Positions 2,196 to 7,211 of a DNA stretch of 64,000 bases are shown here, in pieces; position 1 is the first letter of the stretch; every line of letters begins with the position of its first letter. Made by a program: the position numbers and the translations under genes. The stretch is taken from the NCBI RefSeq assembly GCF_021568695.1, contig NZ_JAKGTI010000001.1:1426001-1490000 (forward strand), given 5' to 3'. The notes under the pieces were generated by a model. It ran no database searches and was not told where the DNA came from. It worked only from the letters and a program-made list of their open reading frames with translations. Origin of the DNA: Maritalea mediterranea (GTDB lineage: Bacteria > Pseudomonadota > Alphaproteobacteria > Rhizobiales > Devosiaceae).

Positions 2196-2885
2196 ATGAC
2201 TTACTATTCTGACCATGCCAAAGCGCTGGCCAAAAGGCTGCGCCAGTTCCTAAAACAGCGCGATATTGACCTGTCTCACAGCCAATGTCTTGAGATATTC
2301 TCCGAATTGACCGGGGAAATCAGTTGGAATCATTTGAACGCAAAGCTGAACACCAATCAAGATCGGGACAGATTGCCCTATGGTTGGTTTGCCCACGGAG
2401 AATATCTCAGCTCTTCCTATCAATTTGCGTTTGAAAAAGCGGCACGAACGATATCAATAGCGTGCGAAAAGCAGCGTCCTAGAACTTATGCGACGCTGAT
2501 GCAGTTTTTCGCAGCGGACCGCTTTAAAGACACAACACTGATGTTTTCTTGGCAAATCAAGACCGAAGATGCCGATAGCGCGAGCCTATGGATGCGTGCC
2601 GATGGCGCGGAACGCGAGCGACTGGCGTTCGACAATATGCAAACACCTGAACCGGATCGCTCCATTAAAGGAACCACTGGTTGGCAGGATGTCGCCATTG
2701 AGCTGTTTATCCCAAGAGAGACGGAGAAGATCTTCTTCGGTGTGTTGCTGTCAGGCAAAGGCAAGGCCAGCTTCCGCAACCTTCAAATGATTGCACAAAA
2801 TGGAGAAGCCTTGCCCCTTAATTATGACGACACTGACTCGCTTTATCCGGTTAATTTGGGGATGTTCGCTAGCCAAACAAAGTAA
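2196..2885 (+). CDS. Uncharacterised protein with Glyoxalase_8-like N-terminal domain
   Basis: The function of this 229-residue protein is unknown. Its first 50 residues (AKRLRQFLKQRDIDLSHSQ, then WNHLNAK) match the short helical domain often annotated 'glyoxalase superfamily protein' in proteobacteria, whose signature is a basic helix, LSHSQ and WN.L.A. That domain is not itself a glyoxalase fold. The rest, about 75-225, alternates strands (TLMFSWQIKTEDADSASLWM, GWQDVAIELFIP, IFFGVLLSGKGKASFRN) and looks like a beta-sandwich of the kind found in sensory or carbohydrate-binding proteins. No signal peptide or membrane segment is seen. The last 17 bp overlap the 3' end of the convergent MarR-type gene. 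Confidence 0.6.
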   Translation: MTYYSDHAKALAKRLRQFLKQRDIDLSHSQCLEIFSELTGEISWNHLNAKLNTNQDRDRLPYGWFAHGEYLSSSYQFAFEKAARTISIACEKQRPRTYATLMQFFAADRFKDTTLMFSWQIKTEDADSASLWMRADGAERERLAFDNMQTPEPDRSIKGTTGWQDVAIELFIPRETEKIFFGVLLSGKGKASFRNLQMIAQNGEALPLNYDDTDSLYPVNLGMFASQTK

Positions 2886-3390
2886 GCTGGGAGGCGTCGA
2901 ATTCGGCTTGTTTTGCAGCGTCAGCCGCCTCTTTGACCTTTTTCGGTTCAGCTTTCTTTTTGGCTTTCGCAGGCGCTGTTCCAGGTTCGATGTTTGCCGC
3001 CTTTGGTGGCGTTGCGCCAATGCCTAACTCAGCCGCCGCCGTTTCCAGAGCGGCATAGGCGGCTTTGCCCGCTTGCCGCAGTTCGTCGCCCTTTGCAGTC
3101 AACACAATATGCTGTGCCCGCGCATCTTTTTTGCATGGCTTGCGCTTGACCAGCTTGCGCTTTTCCAGCTTGTCCATCATGGCGCTGGCCGAGGCTTTGT
3201 TCACGCCCATCATACGTACAATATCGTGCAGGTGTTGACCGTGGAAGTCCTTGTCTTTCGCAAGCTCTGCCTGCTCATAAATGGCACTGAGATATTCAAA
3301 CTCGCTATAACTCATGCCCAGTTGAGATGTGTGTTTCATCCAATAACGGTGGGCGAGGCGGTGGAGCACTTCCAGATGTTCGGCACGCAT
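2869..3390 (-). CDS. MarR-type winged-helix regulator with Lys/Ala-rich tail and C-terminal QLTLF motif
   Basis: Residues about 8-110 form a MarR-like winged helix: HLHDIVRMMGVNKASASAMMDKLEKRKL as helix-turn-helix, then a wing (KRKPCKKDARAQ, HIVLT) and the closing 'AKGDEL' helix. After residue 125 the protein changes to a low-complexity tail rich in Lys, Ala and Pro (about 130-165) and ends ASQLTLFG. QLTLF (168-172) fits the bacterial sliding-clamp-binding consensus QL(S/D)LF, which is normally found on replication and repair proteins and often at the very C-terminus. MarR proteins usually end after the dimerisation helices, at about 140-160 residues. An inverted repeat lies 18-32 bp upstream of the start and suggests autoregulation. 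The ligand and targets are unknown. Confidence 0.8.
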   Translation of the reverse strand: MRAEHLEVLHRLAHRYWMKHTSQLGMSYSEFEYLSAIYEQAELAKDKDFHGQHLHDIVRMMGVNKASASAMMDKLEKRKLVKRKPCKKDARAQHIVLTAKGDELRQAGKAAYAALETAAAELGIGATPPKAANIEPGTAPAKAKKKAEPKKVKEAADAAKQAEFDASQLTLFG

Positions 3391-3407
3391 ATCTAACTCT
3401 TATTTTG

Positions 3408-3422
3408 GTACGCTTGCCGTAC
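3408..3422. promoter_or_regulatory. Inverted repeat upstream of the MarR-type gene (candidate operator)
   Basis: GTACG, five bases, then CGTAC forms a perfect inverted repeat 18-32 bp before the start codon of the MarR-type gene (minus strand). MarR regulators commonly bind palindromes of 15-20 bp in their own promoter, so this is the natural autoregulatory site. It also lies in the shared upstream region of the aminotransferase gene at 3653, about 230 bp away. No binding data. Confidence 0.45.
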
Positions 3423-3652
3423 TAATTGGAAAAATACCGTGATGGTCAATTATCTTTACGCGCGGGCGCGCGATTTCAGATACTTATCAACGGATTTTCG
3501 CGGGCGAAAATCTGCGCCAACCGGTCACATCATGACAAATTCGGCTTTGCAAAACTTCTTATCCATTTAAAAACCATAATTTGTTACAATTCTAGCATGG
3601 AGCGGACGGCAAGGCGCCGTGCGCATTCAACATCGAGGTCGAAAGAGGAACC

Positions 3653-4923: not shown

Positions 4924-5013
4924 GTTTTAATCCGGAACCAATTCTTTTTGGAAATGTTGATGGGGTAGGGCGCGAGCGCGCGCTGCGTGAACGGGCGTCA
5001 TAAAGGGGTTACG

Positions 5014-5544
5014 ATGAAAAAGATTCTCCTATCATTAATGGCGGTAGGGCTGCTCGCAGCCTGCGATACGCCACAAGAAGTGCCTGAAGCTGAAAAAGAG
5101 GCTGAGGTGGAAGTCCAATCTCAGGAAAATTCGCAGCAACAATCTGAGAGTGCGACGGAAGACGAGCGTGGTGATGTGGTCAAAGACGCACAGACGCAAG
5201 CTGAGAAAGTCGCCAAAGACATAGAAAACAACGTCAACAGATTGACCGAAGAGGGCAAGCAAGCCGCTGAAAAGTTGGGTGAAGAGGCCAAAAAAGCGTT
5301 TGAGCAGACGCAGTCTGGCGCACAGCAATTAGCCGACGAGGCCGAAAAAGCACTCGACAGGCTGACCGATGGCGAAGCGGAAGAGGCTCACCAAGTTGTC
5401 GGGCCCGATGGGGAAATGCTCACATTGGAAACATGTGCCGCCTTTACCTATGACCCTGAGAACATGGATGCCAAAACCCGAGCAAAGGTAGAAGCTTGTG
5501 AGGCGCTGCAAGCGGCTGCGGAAGACGACGCCGGTAGCAATTGA
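5014..5544 (+). CDS. Small lipoprotein with coiled-coil helix
   Basis: The 176-residue product starts MKKILLSLMAVGLLAAC, a lipoprotein signal peptide with Cys17 as the lipidated residue. After a Glu/Gln-rich linker, residues about 60-125 form repeated amphipathic helix of the kind QAEKVAKDIENNVNRL, EEGKQAAEKLGEEAKKAFEQ, ADEAEKALDRL, resembling apolipoprotein/YtxH-like helices. A short Cys-containing C-terminal segment (LETCAAFTYD, VEACEALQAAA) closes it. The frame is open back to 4987, but the ATG at 5014 gives the clean signal peptide. Function is unknown; an envelope-anchored structural helix is likely. It sits between two Rho-independent terminators, so it is its own transcription unit. 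Confidence 0.75.
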   Translation: MKKILLSLMAVGLLAACDTPQEVPEAEKEAEVEVQSQENSQQQSESATEDERGDVVKDAQTQAEKVAKDIENNVNRLTEEGKQAAEKLGEEAKKAFEQTQSGAQQLADEAEKALDRLTDGEAEEAHQVVGPDGEMLTLETCAAFTYDPENMDAKTRAKVEACEALQAAAEDDAGSN

Positions 5545-5576
5545 CCGCTAAAATTTGAACCAAGCCAAATCATTTG

Positions 5577-5603
5577 AGCCGCGCGTCAGCGCGGCTTTCT
5601 TTT
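5577..5603 (+). terminator. Rho-independent terminator after the lipoprotein gene
   Basis: AGCCGCGC and GCGCGGCT pair across GTCA, followed by TTCTTTT. It closes the single-gene lipoprotein unit. Confidence 0.85.
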
Positions 5604-5616
5604 GCGCGCGGGTATA

Positions 5617-5687
5617 TTTCCTACACACAAGACTTGACCTGTAGGACTTTTATCTGTTTATCGGGGTGTAGGAAATGTGGTGTAGGA
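5617..5687. promoter_or_regulatory. Cluster of TGTAGGA repeats upstream of hom
   Basis: The heptamer TGTAGGA occurs three times on the plus strand (5640-5646, 5667-5673, 5681-5687) and once inverted (TCCTACA at 5619-5625). The longest pair is TTTCCTACAC at 5617-5626 and its exact complement GTGTAGGAAA at 5666-5675. A possible sigma-70 promoter, TTGACC (5634-5639) with a 17-base spacer to TTTATC (5657-5662), sits inside the cluster. The last copy ends 9 bp before the first start codon of the fused hom gene. Repeats of this density around a promoter suggest an operator, and the HTH domain encoded right behind it is the obvious candidate ligand. Confidence 0.5.
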
Positions 5688-5696
5688 TTTATAGGT

Positions 5697-7211
5697 ATGT
5701 CCGAGCAGGCAGAATTTTTGGCACAAATAGAAGGGTTTTTGGCGGAAACAGGATGTTCGCCCAGCCGCTTCGGACGAGAGTTTGCTGCGGATCCCTTATT
5801 TGTATTTAACCTGCGCAAAGGTCGCGAACCGCGCGCAGAAACACGCAAAAGAATATTGGCGCAAATGCGCGAAACGGAAAGGCAAGATATGAAGAACGAA
5901 GCTCCCCTTCGTGTAGGCATTGCAGGTGTAGGTACCGTTGGGGCCTCGCTCATTTCAATGTTTTTGAACGATCAGGAGCGCATGACGCAGCGCTTTGGGC
6001 GGCAAATCGTGGTCACAGGGATCTCCGCTCGATCGCGGTCTAAAGATCGGGGAGTCGATCTGTCCGAGATGGCTTGGTTTGACGATCCAGTCGCGTTGGC
6101 AAAGTCCGACAATATTGACCTTTTTGTGGAGCTCATGGGGGGCGAGGACGGCCCAGCGCTTGCCTCGATTCGCGCTGCACTTGAACTCGGCAAGCCGGTG
6201 GTCACCGCCAACAAGGCACTGATCGCCAAGCATGGGGTGGAAATCGCGCATCTGGCCGAGCAAACCAACACCCAGTTCGGGTTCGAAGCGGCAGTAGCTG
6301 GCGGTATTCCGATTATTAAAACTTTGCGGGAAGGCCTTGGACTGGCGCAGGTACAGCGTGTCTATGGCATTATGAATGGCACCTGCAATTATATTCTGAC
6401 GCGTATGACCAATGAAGGCATTAATTTTCAGGATTGCCTGAAAGACGCGCAGGAGCTTGGCTATGCCGAGGCTGATCCGACTTTTGATATCGAAGGGTTT
6501 GATACCGCACATAAACTGGCGATCCTCACCAGCCTGTGTTTTGGCTGCAAAATTGCAGCGGATCAAATGTATGTTGAAGGCATCACCCGCATTGATCAGG
6601 CTGACATCAAGGTGGCCAGCGATTTGGGCTTTGATATCAAGCTGCTGGGTGTCGCCCAGCGCACGCCGGACGGCATTGAGCAGCGTGTGCACCCCACACT
6701 TGTGCCAAAAACCAGCACTATCGCTGGAATTGACGGTGTACTTAATGCGGTGTCGTTAGAAACGGACCACGTGGAAGAATTATTGCTGGCCGGGCCTGGT
6801 GCAGGGGGCGATGCCACGGCAGCGTCTGTCATTTCGGATATTTTTGATTGCGTGCGGGGCACCCATGTGCCTCCATTGGGCTTGCCTGTGGCCGAACTCG
6901 AGCCTTACGATAAGGCACGCATGCGTGAGCATGAAGGCGGCTACTTTATTCGACTAAATGCTAGGGACATTCCTGGCGCACTTGCTGCTATAGCGTCACG
7001 CATGGGGGAAAGCGAAATTTCGCTTGAAAGCGTTATTCAACGGCCAGATCTGGTGGTGAATGACCCTGAGACAAAAAGCGAGGCAACGCGGACCGTTGTG
7101 TTGATCACGCAAAAGACCCTTGAGCAGTCAGTGCGGCAGACCATTGATCGGATTGCGGCAGATGGCTTTATCGTTGGAAAACCGCAAGTGATCCGGATCG
7201 AGCGGTTTTAA
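5697..7211 (+). CDS. hom: Homoserine dehydrogenase with N-terminal mini-HTH-like domain
   Basis: Homoserine dehydrogenase reduces aspartate semialdehyde to homoserine, the branch to threonine and methionine. From Met65 (5889) the protein is a normal 440-residue enzyme: Rossmann loop GIAGVGTVG (74-82), EAAVAGGIPII, FDTAHKLAILTSL with the catalytic Lys, and a C-terminal ACT domain (about 416-504, GGYFIRLNARDIPGALAAIA) for threonine feedback. The same frame continues upstream to an ATG at 5697. The extra 64 residues (FLAQIEGFLAETG, SRFGREFAADPLFVFNLRKG) match a small helix-turn-helix-like family normally found as free 60-80 residue alphaproteobacterial proteins. GGAAAGG just before 5889 could serve as an internal ribosome site, so two products are possible. 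Confidence 0.92.
   Translation: MSEQAEFLAQIEGFLAETGCSPSRFGREFAADPLFVFNLRKGREPRAETRKRILAQMRETERQDMKNEAPLRVGIAGVGTVGASLISMFLNDQERMTQRFGRQIVVTGISARSRSKDRGVDLSEMAWFDDPVALAKSDNIDLFVELMGGEDGPALASIRAALELGKPVVTANKALIAKHGVEIAHLAEQTNTQFGFEAAVAGGIPIIKTLREGLGLAQVQRVYGIMNGTCNYILTRMTNEGINFQDCLKDAQELGYAEADPTFDIEGFDTAHKLAILTSLCFGCKIAADQMYVEGITRIDQADIKVASDLGFDIKLLGVAQRTPDGIEQRVHPTLVPKTSTIAGIDGVLNAVSLETDHVEELLLAGPGAGGDATAASVISDIFDCVRGTHVPPLGLPVAELEPYDKARMREHEGGYFIRLNARDIPGALAAIASRMGESEISLESVIQRPDLVVNDPETKSEATRTVVLITQKTLEQSVRQTIDRIAADGFIVGKPQVIRIERF

Follow-up and report, generated by a model that had tools for sequence, protein, structure and literature searches.

We identified in Maritalea mediterranea a 173-residue MarR-type protein whose C-terminus reads ...DASQLTLFG. 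Our main reading, to which we give a probability of about two in three, is that it is an autoregulated MarR repressor with a C-terminal DnaN-docking motif on a flexible linker, and that its action would be coupled to replication. The MarR fold, the disordered linker, and the conservation of both the terminal motif and a palindrome upstream of the gene were established by computation. Positions below refer to the window, that is, the whole stretch of 64,000 nucleotides that was analyzed, in which the following features were assigned:

2869..3390, minus strand: coding sequence of the 173-residue MarR-type protein (ATG at 3388-3390, TAG stop at 2869-2871)
3028..3390, minus strand: MarR winged-helix domain, residues 1-121 (Pfam, AlphaFold2, Foldseek)
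2890..3027, minus strand: disordered K/A/P/E-rich linker, residues 122-167 (pLDDT; little conservation between subclades)
2872..2889, minus strand: C-terminal QLTLFG, residues 168-173, putative sliding-clamp-binding motif (conservation and consensus match)
3407..3424, minus strand: putative operator TAGTACGGCAAGCGTACC, an imperfect palindrome kept 5' of all six tailed genes
3408-3422, minus strand: operator core GTACGGCAAGCGTAC (site scan)
3444..3449, minus strand: putative -35 box TTGACC, assigned by eye, with TTGAC at -59 from the ATG
minus strand: putative -10 box ATTAGT, placed by eye, which would overlap the operator
2196..2885, plus strand: convergent neighbor with a Glyoxalase_8 match, overlapping the end of the coding sequence by 17 nt

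The contig that carries the gene, 1.87 Mb in length, also contains dnaA and dnaN, and argC is found near the gene in the window and at three orthologous loci (L008, L009, and L010); by contig and argC neighborhood, it looks like an ordinary, vertically kept chromosomal gene. Elsewhere in the window, the homoserine dehydrogenase reading frame at 5574-7211 (plus strand) is open well 5' of its NAD-binding domain; in the stretch from 5691, the approximately 78 residues before that domain have no Pfam match and look helix-turn-helix-like by eye.

The initial annotation, which did not mention that the gene is on the minus strand, had described a winged-helix MarR-type domain up to about residue 120 followed by a flexible tail, and the profile searches and the predicted structure agree with both parts of that description. 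Pfam returned MarR_2 (E 4.5e-9, residues 25-92) and MarR (E 9e-9), with PF12802 at 36.8 bits (cut-off 27) and PF01047 at 35.5 bits (cut-off 24.6). The protein has one MarR domain, and no enzymatic or toxin domain was detected by Pfam. In NCBIfam, the Saro_0803 family regulator model NF053777 scored 35.5 bits, below its curated cut-off of 200. An AlphaFold2 monomer model, built on the six-sequence orthologue alignment, placed a MarR fold at residues 2-121, with block means of pLDDT between 75 and 95 through residue 120. Confidence fell below 50 at residues 127-148 and 150-166 and averaged about 50 in the last block, and no helix or strand was predicted beyond residue 121. The Foldseek matches shown were MarR-type regulators, such as MepR and MexR. 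MarR family members form homodimers through their N- and C-terminal helices, and the monomer model has predicted helices at residues 2-24 and 99-121. The domain also carries DARA, which we take to be the DxR-type wing signature of MarR proteins.

Three residues ahead of DARA lies Cys86 (window 3133-3135, minus strand), which is kept in all 13 family members compared; a redox or metal switch near the DNA-binding wing is possible. Several other profile hits were judged to reflect generic winged-helix similarity: the PADLOC CARF3 matches (best E 7.8e-4, residues 55-97), phrog_11961 (E 1.9e-6, unknown function), and phrog_270 (replication initiation protein, E 0.015).

The tail was then compared among six Maritalea orthologues, consisting of the window protein and those of five loci (L008-L012) labeled M. 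myrionectae, M. mobilis, M. porphyrae (two strains), and uncultured Maritalea. QL[ST]LFG forms the extreme C-terminus of every one, as QLTLFG in three and as QLSLFG in the other three. The initial annotation had read a C-terminal QLTLF plus one Gly and had named retention of QLxLF by orthologues as the check on its proposal; the reading is confirmed, and the motif is kept throughout the set. Counted back from the C-terminus without gaps, the hexapeptide is 83-100% identical in every pair, with five of six residues shared between subclades. Over the 34 positions ahead of it, identity is 50-59% among members of the window/myrionectae/mobilis group, drops to 15-26% in the porphyrae/uncultured group, and is 6-26% when sequences of the two subclades are compared. 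A conserved hexapeptide after a diverged linker is the pattern of a short linear motif that is probably under protein-level selection. The orthologues use different synonymous codons for Q, for both L, and for G, and their T codons are ACN where the S codon is AGC; we therefore infer that selection acts on the QL[ST]LFG peptide.

The linker itself spans approximately 40-55 residues and is Lys-rich, with nearly as many Asp and Glu residues in most species; its net charge is +3 for the window protein, and the five orthologues range from 0 to +1. It had been described as basic. What is kept is a spacer that is disordered by pLDDT and rich in K, A, P, and E, whereas net-basic character is not kept (0 to +3 across the six orthologues), Asp and Glu nearly balancing Lys.

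The published clamp consensus is summarized as QL[S/D]LF, or in a broader form as QxxLF, in which positions 1, 4, and 5 matter most (PMC12309361), and as QLxLF, often C-terminal (PMC4549789). QL[ST]LFG agrees with it at Q, L, L, and F, in keeping with the earlier suggestion that QLTLF fits the known consensus; the third residue, T in three of the six orthologues, lies outside the strict S/D. The motif is also exposed, standing at the extreme end of a segment predicted by AlphaFold2 to be flexible. The host DnaN keeps the ATDGHRLA and MPMR segments, which presumably line its pocket. Judged from its sequence, QL[ST]LFG probably binds DnaN, and docking on the clamp is strongly suggested.

Positive controls for clamp motifs in the host are weak. 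DnaE2 carries PLPLF and DnaE1 carries IMDMF, both read by eye and both without the first Gln, in stretches that we take to be the expected clamp-motif positions. A regular-expression search returned no clamp motif in DnaE1, only QMSML away from the expected position in DnaE2, and no QLxLF-type motif in the host's Pol IV or ImuB. Host motif usage is therefore not fully canonical. HdaA was not identified in this genome, where PF00308 gave DnaA and one match below the cut-off.

MarR autorepression typically involves a palindrome that overlaps the promoter of the regulator's own gene, and a putative operator of this kind was found at the promoter of all six tailed genes. An AGTnCG-N5-CGnAC palindrome lies just upstream of each, and its full forms, TAGTnCG-N5-CGnAC or AAGTACG-N5-CGTAC, stand 31-42 nt ahead of the start codon. 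The looser pattern AGTnnG-N5-CnnAC is present upstream of six of six tailed and five of seven short genes (the short homologues are described below), the remaining two short genes having near-variants by eye. On both strands of the 60,890 bases of L008-L012 this pattern has six matches, five of which are the upstream sites. TTGAC occurs 26-27 nt 5' of the operator AGT in four of the six tailed genes; L009 has TTGAT, and in L008 TTGAC is 45 nt from the operator AGT, with extra sequence between.

Genome-wide scans with strict versions of the operator returned 36 sites in six Maritalea genomes against 73 for the reversed control (first version), and 33 sites in four genomes against 352 for the reversed control (second version). 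Twenty-two loci were read in context, 14 of the 36 from the first scan and 8 of the 33 from the second. In the M. mediterranea genome this covered all five first-scan sites and three of seven second-scan matches; two of the other four are the own-promoter site on both strands, and L079 and L083 were left out of the reading, as were all non-promoter matches in G002 and G004. Two of the 22 loci are own-promoter sites, in the window species and in G005. Among the other 20 (19 distinct sites), 19 loci lie inside open reading frames of at least 90 codons, some of which may be spurious; L080, in G005, is the sole operator-like site read outside such frames, own promoters aside. No second promoter-located operator was recognized among the 22 loci. 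With no target promoter recognized beyond its own, no link to replication genes was seen.

An operator-like sequence also recurs inside the same reading frame in three Maritalea genomes (L061, L062, and L088, at about 1501-1518). The frame resembles NAD(P)H-hydrate repair enzymes, and the recurrence appears, by eye, to be due to a conserved peptide, GT(F/Y)AELIK. A related site lies in a similar frame in a fourth Maritalea genome (L066).

Seven short homologues were compared with the tailed form: a second copy in M. myrionectae (L023, genome G001), one on a Phaeobacter plasmid (L071), and one in each of five genomes of the same order or class (L069, L070, and L072-L074). In the alignment they share the DNA-binding domain, measure 128-152 residues, and have neither tail nor motif. 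Phylogenetic analysis gave an unrooted tree in which one branch divides tailed from short forms (support 89/88), 2 of its 13 inner branches being strongly supported. In six of the seven, the C-terminal stretch runs about 20 residues further, where the linker stands in the tailed protein; this final segment is probably the last MarR dimerization helix. The arrangement suggests that the linker may have taken the place of this segment.

Downstream of six short genes (all but L073), at a distance of up to approximately 1 kb and in the same orientation, there is a gene for a small CPYC-type membrane-like protein; in L074 one other gene separates the two. These partner genes are located as follows:

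L023, 938-1378, minus strand: CPYC membrane-like partner
L072, 1949-2338, plus strand: CPYC membrane-like partner
L074, 299-685, minus strand: CPYC membrane-like partner
L071, 9871-10269, plus strand: CPYC membrane-like partner, on the conjugative Phaeobacter plasmid
L069 and L070: CPYC membrane-like partner, near the MarR genes

The short MarR homologue and this membrane-like protein form a conserved two-gene unit, and the partner has no named family: Pfam gave no match at threshold, the best being a sub-threshold DUF1360. Among the six Maritalea genomes searched, the partner was found only in G001, adjoining the short copy; it was not found in the other five, M. mediterranea included (G004 is 83% complete). 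Since the partner is seen only beside the short copy, the tailed regulator has lost it or never had it.

The tailed form was found only in Maritalea among the genomes searched, which comprised 61 relatives, 397 genomes of the order, and 385 of the class (overlapping sets, with order and class matches listed up to E 1e-12). A scan of 84,980 species with exact short peptides gave five loci, all Maritalea. A phage origin was considered and rejected, with no match in 50,697 phage records, and viral contigs held no confirmed relative among 15 candidate stretches. The plasmid search returned the short form only, in two Phaeobacter records.

In the mechanism that we propose, the MarR-family protein would bind the palindrome over its own promoter and repress its own transcription, as MarR regulators usually do. 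Its terminal QL[ST]LFG, on the flexible linker, would dock in the hydrophobic pocket of DnaN, as the published consensus suggests. The two tails of a MarR dimer would meet two pockets in the DnaN ring, which could allow bivalent docking. The most likely consequence is that the repressor would be captured by clamps that were loaded at forks and stay behind on newly replicated DNA: the amount of free repressor, and hence autorepression, would follow replication activity or clamp availability, and the repressor would become concentrated on freshly replicated DNA. Coupling to replication, which the initial annotation had raised along with a role of the clamp as platform, is weakly suggested by this reasoning. 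A more specific version, in which a chromosomal repressor has its free amount set by DNA-loaded clamps and arose by replacement of the end of a short MarR protein within one genus, is offered tentatively.

The tail might also dock on the clamp for another purpose. The protein could be mainly a replication or repair accessory factor, or, like SocB, a dosage-controlled competitor of clamp clients, with the MarR domain serving only to autoregulate it or to hold DNA. SocB inhibits elongation through clamp binding (PMC9690074), no second promoter-located operator was recognized among the sites read, and in five of six Maritalea genomes no copy was found of the partner that six of the seven short homologues have. 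However, the scans were strict and only a portion of their matches was read in context, which could leave a regulon unnoticed; the protein has no enzymatic or toxin domain by Pfam; and a gene that shares a contig with dnaA and dnaN and has argC nearby looks ordinary and vertically kept. We regard this role as unlikely, though it deserves serious consideration. We consider it distinctly less probable that QL[ST]LFG serves a different partner, such as a protease adaptor, RNA polymerase, or the MarR domain of the protein itself within the dimer. Short hydrophobic C-termini can act as degrons, docking on the clamp is putative, and the last Gly, which the clamp pentapeptide does not need, is invariant in all six orthologues. 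Against this, Q, L, L, and F of the motif all fit the clamp consensus from the literature, and the low-confidence tail of the monomer model gives no support to packing on the protein's own predicted domain.

An ending that arose by chance, or that is preserved through overlap with the convergent gene, is hardly credible. The last 17 nt of the coding sequence do overlap the frame at 2196-2885, and the same overlap occurs in L009. The M. mediterranea genome was also searched at the DNA level for Q-[L/F]-x-[L/F]-F followed by one further codon and a stop-like codon (TGG being accepted too); this gave 13 matches and the reversed control 16, so the DNA word as such shows no enrichment. When 8 of the 13 matches were viewed in context, the MarR gene was the only convincing gene ending in QLxLF plus one residue, another of the eight (L034) being a doubtful 140-residue frame with such an end. 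However, the overlap is only 4 nt in L011 and is absent in L008, L010, and L012, all of which keep the motif. Because the overlap differs in this way among orthologues, it does not explain the conservation, and we rejected it as the cause, also in view of the synonymous changes; the diverged linker speaks likewise against chance. In addition, C-termini in this neighborhood can drift between species: the last residues of the small lipoprotein-like frame at 4987-5544 are AGSN in the window but GESQ in L009 and GEGQ in L008.

The Maritalea protein resembles MarR, MexR, and MepR in its winged-helix fold, in its DxR-type wing, and in the palindromic site at its own promoter; unlike them, it has the linker of about 40-55 residues and the conserved QL[ST]LFG. 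Its nearest functional parallel is found in T4 gp55 and gp33, transcription proteins with a gp45 clamp-binding motif past a linker of approximately 21 residues in gp55 and three in gp33 (PMC7892883). These are a phage promoter-specificity factor and a coactivator that work with a trimeric clamp, whereas the Maritalea protein is a predicted bacterial DNA-binding repressor with no known homology to them. Rep initiators of iteron plasmids have winged-helix domains, and TrfA and other initiators carry a clamp motif (PMC4980987), a combination that the Maritalea protein, with its putative motif, would share; TrfA, however, is an iteron replication initiator with an internal motif (Leu137-Phe138), whereas the Maritalea motif lies at a disordered C-terminus. 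Transposases of many families bind the clamp, mostly via a C-terminal QLxLF-like motif (PMC4549789); insertion-sequence transposases ending in this way are, in contrast, mobile-element enzymes without a MarR domain. HdaA and SocB, like the proposed regulator, act through the clamp in Proteobacteria, but HdaA is an AAA+ protein with an N-terminal QFKLPL and SocB is a toxin, and neither is a MarR protein (PMC3836487, PMC9690074).

No MarR protein with a clamp-docking tail appeared in the literature searched, which consisted of titles and abstract openings and included few subscription journals; within that coverage, the statement of the initial annotation that none had been described holds. The string "marr" in PMC12309361, PMC12448304, and PMC13220808 is part of author names (Marrin, Marr). 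In the literature searched, then, this is a MarR protein of a variant architecture not described before.

The proposal is easy to test, since the tag has only six residues, a single operator is predicted, and the short homologues provide natural controls. To our knowledge, only phage T4 offers a well-established case of clamp-dependent transcription. If our reading is true, a cellular repressor with a clamp-docking tail would tie gene expression directly and physically to replication in bacteria.
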